From a virus: a stretch of 64,000 bases of DNA. This document shows, one piece after another, positions 2,196 through 64,000 of the stretch. Position numbers and translations under genes: made by a program. The stretch covers positions 310,001 through 374,000 of IMG/VR virus record IMGVR_UViG_3300033145_003233; one strand, given 5' to 3'. Under the pieces are notes generated by a model. It searched no databases, was not told the origin of the DNA, and saw only the letters and a list, made by a program, of their open reading frames with translations. Position 1 is the stretch's first letter. Each line of letters opens with the position of its first letter.

Positions 2196-3019
2196 TATCT
2201 TTTAAAAATCTTTCTATATTGATTTCTATCCATTTTCTTAGGTTTCAACTTCTTTATAACATCTGATAATTTCTCTTTATCCCACAATCTATTATCGCTA
2301 CAATTATGAATGGGCACAGGGCAATTCTCATCTACCCATTTCATAGCCGCTTTGCACATTTTTAAAGTATATGGTTTATGATCTCTATTTTTGCCATAAA
2401 AATCAGTTTTCCTACCCTTACCATATTTGCAATCTGTTCCCAACAGAACTATATCTGAACATCCTAAGGCAACAGCTACCTGAACGGCCAACACCCCAGT
2501 ATTCCCCTTACCATGGAGAACTCCTATATTAGAACCAAATTTAAATTCAGTATCCAATACCCTAAAATTAATAAAAATTCTTCCCGGATCTCCCGTGGAA
2601 CTAGACATCTTTATAGCCTGTTGTCTTATTATATTTTTTTTGTCGCTATTCCAAACCTGCTTATCTTGCCACAACAAAACAGTAGGATCATAAATATAAA
2701 AAATTCTATTTGTGCCTATAGTGAAATATGGATTCAGCAACTTTAAATCTTCTCTAGCTATGCTTGGGGCATTACCTAGTATAAAAGCAACATGACCCTT
2801 TAACAGCCCATTCCACCCTGATAAGGATTTATATCTTATTCTATCCCCTGTTTCCCATTTGCCAAGAATCGATGAAGTAATTTTTAACTTATTTTTCTTC
2901 TTAGGTCTGGTTTTCGTTATTGGGATAATATCTCTTTTCCTGGTTTTTTTTGATTTCTTGCTTTTTCTACCTCTAGGAGATATTTTTAAATCAGATATTT
3001 TTTTCCTATTCGGGTGCAT
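2195..3019 (-). CDS. DUF115/Maf-like (GT42-like fold) protein
   Basis: A 274-residue protein with a Lys/Arg-rich first 45 residues, then a Rossmann-like domain. It shows ILGNAPSI (the G-x-G/A-x-S type N-terminal signature of DUF115/MptE-like and sialyltransferase-like proteins), GTNRIFY, and late VLLGTDCKYG. DUF115 is the catalytic domain of Maf proteins, which transfer CMP-nonulosonic acids to flagellin; the family also includes a pterin diphosphokinase. With CMP-sugar synthesis genes in this window I favour a glycosyltransferase role (inference). It is one of four such proteins here (22380, 32133 and 45003 are the others). The basic N-terminus is shared in style with the lysine-rich neighbour. 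Confidence 0.55.
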   Translation of the reverse strand: MHPNRKKISDLKISPRGRKSKKSKKTRKRDIIPITKTRPKKKNKLKITSSILGKWETGDRIRYKSLSGWNGLLKGHVAFILGNAPSIAREDLKLLNPYFTIGTNRIFYIYDPTVLLWQDKQVWNSDKKNIIRQQAIKMSSSTGDPGRIFINFRVLDTEFKFGSNIGVLHGKGNTGVLAVQVAVALGCSDIVLLGTDCKYGKGRKTDFYGKNRDHKPYTLKMCKAAMKWVDENCPVPIHNCSDNRLWDKEKLSDVIKKLKPKKMDRNQYRKIFKR

Positions 3020-3028
3020 CTTTTCCTA

Positions 3029-3964
3029 TCATATAATCTTTCTAAAATAATCTATTGTCATATCCATTCCTTCCTCAAGCTTAATATCCGGGAACCAATC
3101 AATTAGTTCAATAGCAAGCTCTATATCAGGATTCCTTCTTTGAGGATCATCTTCTGGCAAACTCCTATAAACTATCTTAGACTTACTATTCGTCATTAGA
3201 ATTATCTTATGAGCTAACTCCAGAATATTTATTTCATGAGGATTACCCAGATTAATAGGGCCAGTTATATCCTTCTTAGATTCCATTAGTTTTATCATTC
3301 CCCATACTGTATCATCCACATAACAAAAACTTCTAGTTTGTTTCCCCTCTCCATATATAGTGATATCCTCGTCCCTTAAAGATTGAACTATAAAATTACT
3401 CACTACTCTTCCATCATTAATAGACATATTAGATCCATATGTATTAAAAATTCTAGCCACTTTAATTTCTAAACCATATTGTCTATGATAATCAAAGAAC
3501 AAAGTCTCCGCACAACGCTTCCCCTCATCGTAACAAGATCTGATACCTATAGGATTAACATTCCCCCAATATGTTTCTATCTGAGGAGAGATAAGTGGAT
3601 CTCCATATATTTCGCTAGTAGATGCTTGTAAAACCTTAGCTCCTGTTTTTCTAGCAGATTCCAGAACATTAATAGTCCCCTGCACATTAGTCTTTATAGT
3701 TTTAACTGGATCATATTGATAATAAAAAGGAGAAGCAGGACAAGCAAGATTATATATCTCATCTGCCTCAATAATAAAAGGATCACATATATCGTGTCTT
3801 ATTATCTCAAAATTATCCAACCGGCATAAATGATCGATATTTCTTTTACTACCTGTAAAAAAATTATCCAGACAAATAACGTCATTTCCCTTTTCTAGCA
3901 AAATTTCGCAGAGGTGAGAACCTATAAACCCACCTCCCCCAGTCACTAAGCTTATTTTATTCAT
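3029..3964 (-). CDS. uxs: UDP-glucuronate decarboxylase (UDP-xylose synthase)
   Basis: An extended short-chain dehydrogenase of about 311 residues. It has the NAD-binding [10 protein letters not shown] near residue 8, the UXS-specific [14 protein letters not shown] (S117, E118) and SCYDEGKR carrying the catalytic Tyr145/Lys149, then RSFCYVDD. These motifs are diagnostic for decarboxylation of UDP-glucuronate to UDP-xylose. I use the ATG at 3964 ([10 protein letters not shown]); it overlaps the stop of the upstream small gene as ATGAATAA. Further in-frame ATGs at 3973 and 3997 would only add a charged extension. UDP-glucose dehydrogenase, needed to make the substrate, is not in the window, so the host may supply UDP-glucuronate. 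Confidence 0.9.
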
Positions 3965-59354: not shown

Positions 59355-61244
59355 TTAAAAATCCTTGCATATATCAATCTTAAATGGAGATAAACTATAT
59401 CTCTTCCTTCTATGTGTAGCTTCATCCATAATGCTATGCCAAACTTTTATTGCTTCTTTAGTAGATGACACTGAATTAGGAGACCCTACTGGATGTTGAC
59501 GATACTTATAACACACTCTATTCACGAACATGCCAGGTCCAAATTCTTCTAATCTATACCCCATAAATTTATCAACCCCGCATTTTAATTTTCTATTAAA
59601 TAATTTACGAGGTTTTTCTATTTTATAATTAAATGTTCTCCAGTGACCAAAACCATGAACTCTTTTTTTACCGATATCGAGTAAACAATCTGACCCAGAC
59701 GGAGCAGAACAAAATCCTTTTCTTTTCTTATTCATCTTCATATCACATATTTGAAATTGGGTATATATCCATGCAACATCAGGATACTTATTATATAATT
59801 TCATTATAAATTCCACCGAATCATCTACCAAAGCATCATCAGCATCCACCACCCCAAAAAAAGAACCAGTAGCCGAATTAAACAAATTATGATATGATGC
59901 TCCACAATATAATCGTTGTGGACTTTTAACTAATTTAAATTCTATATCATTTTTAGAAAAATCTTCTTGCATTGTCTTTATTAATTGAGAAGTGCCATCA
60001 TTGGAACAATCATCAGCAAATACCACTTCTAGAGGTCTATATTTTTGTTTAAGAATAGAATGATGCCAATCCATTAAATAAGGAACCTTATTAAAACTTG
60101 ATGTCAAAATGCTAAATTTATCATTATCTCTTTTCGTTTTTACGCTTGCTATGGATGGTTTCTCATCTATTATCTTCACTGGAGCATAATCATCTTTAAT
60201 GCCGCATAATTTATTAATGACACTAATATAGCCTCTAGCCATATATTTAGCATCCAGCTGTTCTTTAAAATATTCTTTCGTACTTATCTTAAGCCTCTCC
60301 AACTTATCAGGATTTTTTATTAAATTAGATAATATCTTTTTGGCTCTTTTTCTATCACTAAAAATATATCCATTAACTCCATGTTTTATGATTTCTTTAT
60401 TGCCATAATTATCGCTACAAACAACAGGAATACCACACGCCATAGCTTCCAAGATTGCCATACTAATACCTTCATCCCTGTTTGTCTCATAAAGAAAAAT
60501 GTCCCAATCTTTCATCATAGCAACTTTTGTTTTAAAATCATTAACTCCTCCCAACATTTGTACTTCATTTTTTCCCCGCTTAGTCATATTCCTAGAACGT
60601 CTATGCCCAGATACTTTATCTCCTATATAATGATGAATCAACCGGCATGGTAAATCAACCTCCGCACACCATTTCAGCCATCCGTCAGAATGCTTCCAGC
60701 TACATACCCTATTGATCCTACCAGTAAGCAAAGCTCCCTTCTTATTCATCCCCCTTGGAGTTATAGGCTCATATCTTTCTTGATTCACCCCATTGTAGAT
60801 AAAACAATGTTTAAGATGAGGATACCATTTACCAAGTTGACGATTCATATTATCGCTTACACCTATCATCAAATCTAATTCCCTCAATCTACCCCATGAA
60901 GTTGTTTTAAATAAAGTATGGTTTATAGCTATAACCTTAGCTTTAGTCCCTTTTTTTATTTGCCTTACAAGATTAACACTAGAATTGGCTAGTTTATGAT
61001 ATAATACAACAGCATTTTTATATTCAGCTATTGTATTTACTATCTTTCTTTCATCTTTCATCCTAACACACGGAACGGCAGAGGTAGAAACAAATAAACT
61101 ATTATAATATCTCTCCGTAGTATAAATAACTATTTGTTTGTGTTCAGGATGGTATTTTTTAATGGCATAATAAAGCTCAAACAACATACTCTGTGCTCCT
61201 CCCACCCCCATGTTGTCAATAATATGAAAAATACAAAAAGACAT
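59355..61244 (-). CDS. Bifunctional GT4-GT2 glycosyltransferase fusion
   Basis: A 629-residue fusion. Residues 1 to about 345 form a GT4 (MGVGGAQSMLFELY, FIYNGVNQERYEP, DEGISMAILEAMACGIPVV). After a linker, residues about 378-629 form a GT2 (FSILTSSFNKVPYL, VVFADDCSNDGT, GVVDADDALV) like the gene just downstream. Such two-domain enzymes can add two successive sugars. There are no membrane segments. The start shares a base with the stop of the HNH gene. Confidence 0.87.
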   Translation of the reverse strand: MSFCIFHIIDNMGVGGAQSMLFELYYAIKKYHPEHKQIVIYTTERYYNSLFVSTSAVPCVRMKDERKIVNTIAEYKNAVVLYHKLANSSVNLVRQIKKGTKAKVIAINHTLFKTTSWGRLRELDLMIGVSDNMNRQLGKWYPHLKHCFIYNGVNQERYEPITPRGMNKKGALLTGRINRVCSWKHSDGWLKWCAEVDLPCRLIHHYIGDKVSGHRRSRNMTKRGKNEVQMLGGVNDFKTKVAMMKDWDIFLYETNRDEGISMAILEAMACGIPVVCSDNYGNKEIIKHGVNGYIFSDRKRAKKILSNLIKNPDKLERLKISTKEYFKEQLDAKYMARGYISVINKLCGIKDDYAPVKIIDEKPSIASVKTKRDNDKFSILTSSFNKVPYLMDWHHSILKQKYRPLEVVFADDCSNDGTSQLIKTMQEDFSKNDIEFKLVKSPQRLYCGASYHNLFNSATGSFFGVVDADDALVDDSVEFIMKLYNKYPDVAWIYTQFQICDMKMNKKRKGFCSAPSGSDCLLDIGKKRVHGFGHWRTFNYKIEKPRKLFNRKLKCGVDKFMGYRLEEFGPGMFVNRVCYKYRQHPVGSPNSVSSTKEAIKVWHSIMDEATHRRKRYSLSPFKIDICKDF

Positions 61245-61867
61245 TATGCTGCTCCATAAATAATTTTATTACCTTTTATTATATTATCTTTCGCCCACAA
61301 TGGCTGAAGATTATTTAAAGACCAACAATATTTAAATTCTACGTCATCAGTGCTTTTATATTTAAAAAATGATTTAGGGATGATATGATCAATATGCCAT
61401 TCTATTGAATTATTCCAAGACATCCCTGGCTGAAATAATTTTTCTAAATGTTCTTTTAAATCCTGAAGAGTATAACCAACAAGGAATTCCCAATGTCTAC
61501 CATTTTTAGATATGCCATTAAAATTAAGAGAATTTCTAATCCCTTTAGATATGTTCTCATTTAATCTAATTATAGGATCTTTCCTTCTCTTTGCCCAATA
61601 TTTTCTATACCATTTTGACCTACAATCTGCAATCTCTGGTCTAGATTGATATTTTCTTTTTTGAGCCATTATTTGATCTTTGTTATCTATAGCATATTTT
61701 TTTTGTTGTTCTTTAACTTTTTCTTTATTTTTTTCATAATATTCTTTCCTTTGTTCTTTAATTTTTTCTTTATTTTCTATATAATATTTCTTTCTTCTTC
61801 TCTTTATCTTTTCTTTATTTTTTTCATAATAATCTTTTTTATATTGCCTTACTTCATCTGTTCTCAT
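61244..61867 (-). CDS. HNH endonuclease with 15-residue Lys/Glu repeats
   Basis: A 207-residue protein. Residues 13-72 are four copies of a 15-residue repeat (YYEKNKEKIKRRRKK type), probably a long charged helix that binds DNA. The C-terminal part has WHIDHIIPKSFF and LNNLQPLWAKDNIIKGNK, an HNH nuclease. This is the layout of free-standing phage homing endonucleases. It overlaps the RHH gene upstream by 14 bases and may be controlled by it. Confidence 0.85.
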   Translation of the reverse strand: MRTDEVRQYKKDYYEKNKEKIKRRRKKYYIENKEKIKEQRKEYYEKNKEKVKEQQKKYAIDNKDQIMAQKRKYQSRPEIADCRSKWYRKYWAKRRKDPIIRLNENISKGIRNSLNFNGISKNGRHWEFLVGYTLQDLKEHLEKLFQPGMSWNNSIEWHIDHIIPKSFFKYKSTDDVEFKYCWSLNNLQPLWAKDNIIKGNKIIYGAA

Positions 61868-62009
61868 TTTTATCCCCTCTATTCTTCTGATCTAAATATT
61901 GATCTAAGACTTGTCTTATCAAAGAAGAAGCAGATGTTTGAATTCTTTTAGCTTCTTTCTTAAAAAACCGTTTTTGTCTTTTTGTAAAATAAATTTGAGT
62001 TCTTATCAT
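61854..62009 (-). CDS. Ribbon-helix-helix (CopG/Arc-type) regulator
   Basis: A 51-residue protein starting MIRTQIYFTKRQKRFF. A short beta strand (RTQIYF) is followed by two helices, with SASSLIRQVLDQYL as the second. This matches the RHH fold of CopG/Arc repressors and antitoxins. AGGTG lies six bases upstream of the ATG. The gene overlaps the HNH gene, so it probably controls it or, less likely, they form a toxin-antitoxin pair. Confidence 0.8.
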   Translation of the reverse strand: MIRTQIYFTKRQKRFFKKEAKRIQTSASSLIRQVLDQYLDQKNRGDKNENR

Positions 62010-62023
62010 TTTAACACCTATAT

Positions 62024-62045
62024 ACATATATCATACATATATCAT
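62024..62045. repeat. Two tandem 11-bp repeats upstream of the RHH gene
   Basis: ACATATATCAT occurs twice in exact tandem (62024-62034, 62035-62045), just upstream of the ribosome site of the ribbon-helix-helix gene. RHH proteins bind short tandem or inverted repeats as dimers, so this could be their operator (inference). The sequence is AT-rich, so chance is not excluded. Confidence 0.45.
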
Positions 62046-62134
62046 ATATTTCCAAGTATGCGCAAAAAACTCCTTTATTTCATTAAAAGAATAAAGCAAG
62101 AAATGATTAAAATTTCACTATTTAGAAGAATATT

Positions 62135-63154
62135 TTATCTATTGCTCAAATATTGTTGTTCAATCCAAACATATGTCTTCTCCATCCCCTCTTCTAAAGA
62201 AATTGATGGTTCCCAATTCAAGACTTGTCTAATAAAATTATTATCACTATTCCTACCCCTAACCCCCTCTGGAGCATTCAGGTCATAAATTTTCTCAACC
62301 TTAATATTAGCAATATCCTCAACAAGTGATACCAATCTATTAATAGAAACAAGTTGACTAGAACCAAGATTAATAGGAGTAGCTATTAATTTGTCACAAT
62401 GCATAATCATATCAATACCATTTAGACAATCTTCTATATATGTGAAAGTGCGTGTTTGTAACCCATCTCCCCATATAACTATTTTATGATTACTTGTAGC
62501 TTTAGCATCTATAACCTTGCGACAAATAGCAGCTGGAGCTTTTTCTCTTCCTCCTTTCCACGTTTCGAAAGGTCCATAAATATTATGAAAACGAGCAACA
62601 AAAGTTTTCATCTTGCGCTCGACCCAATATTCTTTACAAAACATTTCCGATATTAACTTTTCCCAGCCATAACCTCGTTCTGCCATCGCTGGATACGCAT
62701 CAGATTCTTTTAATGCAGTACTATCAGAATCACCTTGTAAAGAAATATTGTAAGCACATGCTGATGAAGAAAAAAAATAACGATTGACTCCGGCCTTGTA
62801 TGCCGCTTCAATCATATGTGTATTAATTAAAATGCTTCGAAGACAATCAACCCTGAATTTCTGAATAAAACCTATCCCCCCCATATCAGCAGCTAGATTA
62901 TATACTTCTACCGCTCCCTCACATACCCTAGCACAATTGTCCTTCTCTGTTAAATCTAGGCATAAAGATTCAACACCCTCTACTCTCTGATGCCATTCAG
63001 AAAGCGGTTTTTTATCCACAGCACGAATTCTAAAAAAACCTAGATTGCTGAAATACTTAACTAAAGAGCCTCCGATAAATCCACCCGCTCCGGTAATGAC
63101 AATCAAATCTTCCTTATCAAGCACATCAATAGCTTGCTTGTTTTCCCCCACCAT
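62135..63154 (-). CDS. gme: GDP-mannose 3,5-epimerase
   Basis: A 339-residue extended SDR with clear GME hallmarks: ITGAGGFIGGSLV, YNLAADMGGIGFIQ, SSACAYN, intact YGWEK (Tyr/Lys), FHNIYGPFETWKGGREKA, WGDGLQTRTFTYIED and PEGVRGRNSDNN. It should convert GDP-D-mannose to GDP-L-galactose or GDP-L-gulose. Best known from plants, where it serves ascorbate and cell wall synthesis. Upstream of it lies the radical SAM gene; downstream is the RHH/HNH pair. Confidence 0.9.
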   Translation of the reverse strand: MVGENKQAIDVLDKEDLIVITGAGGFIGGSLVKYFSNLGFFRIRAVDKKPLSEWHQRVEGVESLCLDLTEKDNCARVCEGAVEVYNLAADMGGIGFIQKFRVDCLRSILINTHMIEAAYKAGVNRYFFSSSACAYNISLQGDSDSTALKESDAYPAMAERGYGWEKLISEMFCKEYWVERKMKTFVARFHNIYGPFETWKGGREKAPAAICRKVIDAKATSNHKIVIWGDGLQTRTFTYIEDCLNGIDMIMHCDKLIATPINLGSSQLVSINRLVSLVEDIANIKVEKIYDLNAPEGVRGRNSDNNFIRQVLNWEPSISLEEGMEKTYVWIEQQYLSNR

Positions 63155-63175: not shown

Positions 63176-63910
63176 TCATACCCCTTTATAAACGTTCTTC
63201 ACATATTTAGACAATATAAGATACGCCATAGTTAAGTTATCGGAATTAAAAACAAAATCTTCATACTTATAAGACGGTGACACTCTTAATAAATGACATG
63301 GAATAGTTGGCCTCACCAAATCCTCTGATATAAATTTACCAATCATTTCCATCTCTTCTTCTATCTTATCGTCAGAAAAATATAATGGGATGCTAATCTC
63401 TATATGAGGATTGGCAAAACGAATAGCCCAGTTATTACAAGCTTGTCGTATTCTATCTTTAATTACATAATGCTTAACACCAGCAATAGAATAAAATGAT
63501 TCCTCAGATCCCTTCCAATCTATATTAATAGCATCAGCTACCAAACAAATATATCTCCATGGCCTTTCCTCGACATAAGCATTAGTCTTTATAATAAACT
63601 TAAGATCATTCTTATGACATTCTTCTCCTAGTTCTATCAAAAATTCATAATGAATGGTAGGTTCATTAAATGTCATGCAAATACTATCACAATCGCTCTG
63701 TTTAGCCATAGTAACCAGCTGTAAGGGATCATAATGAAAAGACTTAACCTGCAAATCTTGCTGACTAATCTGCCAATTTTCACAATTATGAACTATGAAG
63801 CCATTAGCAACATAATTTTCATATCCTGGGACATTAAAATTATATACCTTCTGCTTCTTTTTTAATCTTTTAATAGATTTTATTTTTTTATATTCTAAAT
63901 TATCATCCAT
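63176..63910 (-). CDS. Split intein C-half plus radical SAM C-extein
   Basis: A 244-residue protein in two parts. Residues 1-42 (MDDNLEYKKIKSIKR to VANGFIVHN) match the C-terminal blocks of inteins, with the terminal His-Asn just before Cys43. From Cys43 the sequence reads CENWQISQQ, SICMTFNEPTIHYEF, KTNAYVEERPW and AINIDWKGSEESFY, as in radical SAM enzymes of the pyruvate formate-lyase activator/AmmeMemoRadiSam type. Cys43 would be the third Cys of the CX3CX2C cluster motif. An in-frame TGA lies eight codons upstream of the ATG, so the intein N-half is encoded elsewhere, and I find none in the window. A ribosome site is weak. Confidence 0.8.
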   Translation of the reverse strand: MDDNLEYKKIKSIKRLKKKQKVYNFNVPGYENYVANGFIVHNCENWQISQQDLQVKSFHYDPLQLVTMAKQSDCDSICMTFNEPTIHYEFLIELGEECHKNDLKFIIKTNAYVEERPWRYICLVADAINIDWKGSEESFYSIAGVKHYVIKDRIRQACNNWAIRFANPHIEISIPLYFSDDKIEEEMEMIGKFISEDLVRPTIPCHLLRVSPSYKYEDFVFNSDNLTMAYLILSKYVKNVYKGV

Positions 63911-64000
63911 AATATCATTGCACTGTCTTTCTCAGAATTACATGACTCTTATCTCACTTAATTTTAAAATGGATTGATTCTTTTATATATATGATTCGAA

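Follow-up and report, generated by a model that had tools for sequence, protein, structure and literature searches.

A phage radical SAM gene that is probably divided by a split intein before the third cysteine of its cluster motif

The viral DNA described here is a stretch of 64,000 nucleotides (positions 310,001 to 374,000 of IMG/VR record IMGVR_UViG_3300033145_003233), referred to below as the window; the whole source record, G000, from a huge phage, has 547,943 bp, and genome coordinates are obtained by adding 310000 to window coordinates. Near its right end the window harbors an open reading frame (ORF) that starts with the C-terminal part of an intein (Int-C) and continues as the C-terminal part (C-extein) of a radical SAM enzyme; the matching N-terminal half, an N-extein followed by the N-terminal intein part (Int-N), is encoded just beyond the window. 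Judged from sequence, it is very probable that the two ORFs specify one phage radical SAM enzyme which is made as two proteins and trans-spliced by a split intein, and that the locus is derived from a homing cassette. The parts of the two halves are listed below, with positions beyond 64,000 given as extrapolated window coordinates.

63176-63910, minus strand: C-half ORF, 244 amino acids, Int-C plus C-extein of an AmmeMemoRadiSam-like radical SAM enzyme, from profile matches
63785-63910, minus strand: Int-C, 42 amino acids (MDDNLEYKK...VHN), net charge +5, matching PF14890 and TIGR01443
63782-63784, minus strand: codon of the +1 Cys, predicted third cysteine of CX3CX2C after splicing, from alignment of the predicted product with the intact relative L011
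63176-63784, minus strand: C-extein, 202 amino acids, the radical SAM domain starting with the third cluster Cys and reaching the C-terminus; complete as compared to L011
66423-67115 (extrapolated), minus strand: N-half ORF, N-extein ending in CSLKCVF plus a 98-amino-acid Int-N (charge -13), probable start at 66995

Residues 3-42 of the C-half correspond to the C-terminal end of the Pfam family Intein_splicing (PF14890, E 4.9e-9, above its cut-off) and residues 21-43 are covered by TIGR01443 (intein_Cterm, E 6.3e-8), while TIGR04337, the model of the AmmeMemoRadiSam radical SAM enzyme, matches the rest of the protein (E 1.6e-21, starting at model position 84). The junction between Int-C and C-extein reads VHN/CENW, with the +1 Cys aligned to the third Cys of CX3CX2C. 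Several in-frame stop codons, including a TAA and a TGA, precede the ATG, the TGA by eight codons. The first-pass annotation of this ORF had proposed a 42-residue C-intein ending in VHN, a +1 Cys acting as the last cluster ligand, and a reading frame separate from anything upstream; the profile matches, the alignment with L011 and the in-frame stops, respectively, bear this out.

A search of the whole record for intein-splicing sequences gave exactly two matches, the C-intein and a segment at G000:C1:376441-376677 (-). The latter is part of the N-half ORF (G000 376423-377115 (-), 230 amino acids), which lies 2.5 kb upstream of the C-half on the same strand, so that the earlier expectation of an Int-N directly after CxxxCxx to the right of the window proved correct. 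In this protein SIGGYGCSLKCVF is followed immediately by CLPTGTLIST, and the sequence runs on through LTPEH to CDKTCL and terminates in two stop codons. The likely start is the Met at G000 376995, which has AGAGGG upstream and slightly overlaps the end of the peptide deformylase gene, leaving an N-extein of ca. 92 amino acids up to CSLKCVF. PF14890 is matched by both intein halves, and the residues of a class 1 intein are all present: Cys1 (CLPTGT), the T-x-x-H of block B (LTPEH) and the His-Asn end with Cys+1 (IVHN/C). Removal of the intein yields CSLKCVFC-ENW, i.e. a CX3CX2C motif with Cys+1 as the third ligand, which together with the profile match places the spliced product in the radical SAM superfamily. 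The predicted product scores 183.6 bits on TIGR04337 (alignment 7-271), as compared to 76.6 bits for the C-half alone and 169.7 bits for L011. Two further groups of radical SAM genes in the same record (G000:C1 395817-397704 and 197127-198932 (-)) are intein-free as far as the family search shows.

The same gene occurs single, intact and intein-free (282 amino acids) on L011, a 350,866-bp phage contig that shares the neighboring genes, with a deformylase upstream and a glycosyltransferase downstream. The alignment of the predicted product with the L011 protein begins at the N-terminal CxxC region, extends to the C-terminus and is ungapped at the junction; L011 represents an intein-free allele at the insertion site of the window gene. 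No close relative was found among the named phage genomes searched. Between the C-half and the glycosyltransferase the window (61244-63154 (-)) carries an HNH nuclease gene and a NAD-dependent epimerase gene, neither of which is found at that place in the syntenic L011.

Opposite charges drive the association of natural split inteins of the DnaE type. Among the 13 phage split inteins at this site (the window copy and 12 others), Int-N has a charge between -11 and -16 and Int-C one between +4 and +8, whereas in 14 contiguous inteins at the same site the N part ranges from -7 to +8 and the C part from -8 to +2, with no overlap between the two groups. The sequence of the window copy (-13/+5) thus has what we read as the signature of a working split intein and not of a recently broken contiguous one. 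A ribonucleotide reductase gene (L014:7020-10037 (+), also L015 and L016) is intein-split too and has a nuclease-like ORF between its halves; its charges are -3/-7, without this pattern. In another sequence (L017:90-1778 (+)) a terminase-like N-part runs into an N-intein and a GIY-YIG-like sequence in one frame, and the next ORF (2262-3566) shows no evident Int-C.

The 2.5-kb gap between the halves and the gene beyond the N-half contain the following ORFs (extrapolated window coordinates).

63964-65052, minus strand: 362-amino-acid ORF, of which the 3' end (63964-64000) is inside the window
65217-65465, plus strand: 82-amino-acid ORF
65683-66712, plus strand, antisense to the halves: HNH nuclease gene in two overlapping frames, indicating a frame break
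66976-67614, minus strand: peptide deformylase gene, 5' neighbor of the N-half

The 362-amino-acid ORF matches no family above cut-off and has no copy in the L011 phage. The frame of the nuclease is broken near profile position 150, and this nuclease looks inactive from its sequence. These features would fit a dead gene, in which a 2.5-kb insertion broke an intein-bearing gene and left two decaying remnants, with the nuclease out of frame and two extra ORFs having entered. We consider this unlikely: both halves are of full length as compared to L011 and have lost none of the splicing or cluster residues, separate start and stop codons delimit each of them at the usual split point, and the charges are adapted as in working split inteins. 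It is extremely unlikely that the gap is removed at the RNA level as an intron, to give a continuous cis-splicing intein. Introns and inteins can share one gene in phages (PMC3322345), but an Rfam search of the gap at E up to 1 found no intron or other RNA family, which argues against joining of the RNA; moreover, Int-C starts at an ATG of its own, immediately preceded by in-frame stops, and the gap holds genes on both strands.

Searching with the N-half led to a spore photoproduct lyase (SPL)-like radical SAM gene (TIGR03886; PF20903) in other phages (L012, L013), split at the same cysteine with the junctions GCLFNCSY/CVTPET... and ...ILTHN/CYMKR and with an antisense HNH gene between the halves. 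The HNH of this cassette retrieved 36 viral contigs, nearly all with the layout Int-N, antisense HNH, Int-C. Wherever all parts were measurable the geometry was near-constant: the gap measures 548 nt (539 nt in one case), a single palindromic CATG provides the start of both HNH and C-half, and 272 nt (up to 284) are common to HNH and Int-N. The nuclease at the window locus is homologous to that of the SPL cassette in both its frames (E 1e-31 for the first, 2e-14 for the second), so that an endonuclease gene between the halves, which according to the first-pass annotation would support a fractured-gene layout, does exist, albeit frame-broken in this copy. When the window-locus HNH was used as query, no further cassette was found. 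These relatives also bear on whether a continuous intein gene was simply mis-assembled. The window locus comes from a single metagenomic assembly and its nuclease frame break may be a sequencing error, but 2.5 kb and three ORFs lie between the halves, the reading frame of the N-half is closed by two stop codons, that of the C-half is preceded by many in-frame stops, and about 36 SPL-family viral contigs show the same layout with constant geometry; an assembly artefact is thus very improbable.

Among the best 80 matches to the SPL C-extein, most lack an intein. L240 and L241 carry near-isogenic empty SPL alleles; when the flanks of L012 are joined, they are 96.7% identical to these along an alignment of 3100 bp. 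Between near-isogenic occupied and empty alleles the nonsynonymous (dN) and synonymous (dS) divergence of the C-extein is 0.006 and 0.17, and among occupied alleles the median dN/dS is 0.16 for the N-extein and 0.20 for the C-extein. These low ratios among occupied alleles show that both SPL extein halves are still under purifying selection after the split, which likewise speaks against decaying remnants at the homologous window locus. Fourfold-site divergence in matched SPL pairs is 0.54-0.63 in the exteins and lower in the cassette (Int-N 0.16, HNH 0.36, Int-C 0.22); the SPL cassette is therefore younger than the genes holding it, as expected of horizontal spread. From their sequences, these related phage elements of the same layout would seem to behave like mobile DNA aimed at the cluster motif. 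Several intein-free phage SPL-like proteins (L242, L243, L244, L277, L281, L288, L301) have a CX4CX2C motif (e.g. GCIGFNCSYC), with one residue more separating the first cluster cysteine from the second; these could be alleles altered at the target site of the cassette.

In both lineages the HNH active site ends in a part (NHQYHKVVHH in L012, YHIELHR at the window locus) that is encoded opposite Int-N, and along almost the whole of Int-N the antisense frame is open. When Int-N was resampled synonymously, this frame seldom stayed open (P 0 to 0.06 for ten sequences; 0/2000 at the window locus). Int-N diverges less at fourfold sites than the HNH core, and the SPL Int-N has a raised apparent dN/dS (0.61), both in agreement with such double coding. 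By these statistics, which are indirect, the nuclease active site is apparently encoded antisense to the intein.

Taken together, the mechanism that we propose is as follows. Protein 1 would be the N-extein of ca. 92 amino acids fused to the acidic 98-residue Int-N, and protein 2 the basic 42-residue Int-C fused to the 202-residue C-extein that starts at the third cluster cysteine. Int-N and Int-C would associate through their opposite charges, adopt the class 1 intein fold and splice in trans, and ligation would give an enzyme of ca. 294 amino acids with an intact CX3CX2C motif, able to bind the [4Fe-4S] cluster and presumably active. The locus would stem from a homing cassette of Int-N, antisense HNH nuclease and Int-C, relatives of which may have passed from one phage genome to another through cleavage of intein-free radical SAM alleles at the cluster motif. 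The window copy is probably immobile, since its nuclease gene is interrupted and two further ORFs occupy the gap, while splicing would have been kept.

The same cysteine is used in further radical SAM families. A motif scan of viral contigs identified a different, third family (L097, L072), of which the halves (L232, L233) are split at this position with a nuclease-like ORF between them in the sense direction; the two copies of this ORF are 33% identical, match no family and have no detectable homology to the antisense HNH. The same scan found a phage QueE (L061:6497-7639 (-)) whose third cluster cysteine is the site of a contiguous mini-intein; the gene lies in a queuosine-type gene cluster. 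The phage of which the radical SAM gene is intein-free (L234:1492-4473 (+), G004) contains a UvrD-like helicase interrupted by a contiguous intein. In bacterial and archaeal genomes a scan gave many contiguous inteins at the same cysteine, in actinobacterial Rv2578c-like proteins (NF038136), in AmmeMemoRadiSam enzymes of several phyla and in one cyanobacterial family, and those scanned for it contain LAGLIDADG domains. The annotation had regarded a split intein within the cluster motif as striking; an intein there is not new as such, since the third cluster cysteine is already well known as a place of intein insertion. What appears to be new is the split form found in phages, extending over three enzyme families and with codons of the nuclease active site antisense to Int-N; a literature search on radical SAM proteins with inteins or split inteins, with partial coverage, found no earlier report.

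In an intein tree built on 136 columns, the cellular AmmeMemoRadiSam inteins form a separate clade (100/98). A topology test gave p-AU 0.09 for grouping the window intein with these, a grouping that is not rejected, and p-AU 0.375 for grouping it with the SPL split inteins. Because the tree leaves the placement unsettled, a common origin of the window and SPL cassettes rests on the homology of the nucleases. A broader interpretation, to which we assign about even chances, is that there is a phage homing-cassette family specialised for the radical SAM [4Fe-4S] motif, with a split intein before the third Cys and an antisense HNH reading through Int-N, that jumps between unrelated radical SAM families. 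Since the DNA coding for the motif is conserved across the superfamily, such a cassette could move between families, and the homologous nuclease and intein at AmmeMemoRadiSam-like and SPL-like loci would reflect such a jump.

Several observations weigh against the proposal of a trans-spliced enzyme encoded by a former homing cassette. The nuclease gene at the window locus is broken or mis-assembled, and the intein tree does not firmly join the window intein to the SPL split inteins. This exact locus is known from one genome only, and L011, its one intact relative, has diverged too far (dS about 1.4-1.7) for an estimate of selection at the window locus. The spliced product and L011 also stay below the curated TIGR04337 cut-off of 220 bits, and AMMECR1 and Memo have no match in G000, which is possibly a fragment. 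In view of the score and of these missing partners, the enzyme is best described, by its sequence, as a phage relative of the AmmeMemoRadiSam family and not as a proven member of that system.

Dassa et al. (2009) reportedly recognised phage genes that are fractured, with split inteins and with homing endonucleases encoded as free-standing genes. The nearest described layout is that of jumbo phage MIJ3, in which a PolB split intein has an HNH gene between its halves (PMC6892783). Like fractured genes, the present locus combines an Int-N gene, a nuclease gene and an Int-C gene in a phage, with trans-splicing expected; unlike them, it has a radical SAM extein split inside the cluster motif, three radical SAM families are affected, and the nuclease gene runs antisense and has codons in common with Int-N. 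The Rv2578c family, which NCBIfam lists as intein-containing (NF038136), has, as translation shows, its intein at the same third cysteine of CX3CX2C, and Tes (NF045703) is another radical SAM family curated as intein-containing. In contrast to the phage form, these inteins are contiguous, cis-splicing, bacterial or archaeal and without charge segregation, with LAGLIDADG in the cellular inteins scanned. Cellular AmmeMemoRadiSam inteins (L149, L130, L166, L186, L167) share both enzyme family and cysteine, but are contiguous and end in SN or GN instead of HN, with LAGLIDADG in the two scanned. The phage SPL-like cassette (L012, L019-L054) has a homologous antisense HNH, a 47% identical intein and the same insertion cysteine, whereas its extein is SPL-like (TIGR03886), its 548-nt gap is compact and without extra ORFs, and its nuclease is intact. 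Among solved inteins the closest to Int-N is the NrdJ-1 split intein (PDB 8ubs, E 1.9e-6), of which the extein is a ribonucleotide reductase.

Radical SAM enzymes need all three cluster cysteines to work, and the superfamily is present in nearly all prokaryotes. With the gene split within the cluster motif, the enzyme would depend wholly on accurate trans-splicing, and one target of a mobile element would be placed in a superfamily of that distribution. The apparent coding of the nuclease active site antisense to the intein adds to the interest of the cassette, and the new split inteins with their strong charge pairing may be of use in protein engineering. The natural series of empty, contiguous and split forms at one protein site may serve the study of how split inteins originate.
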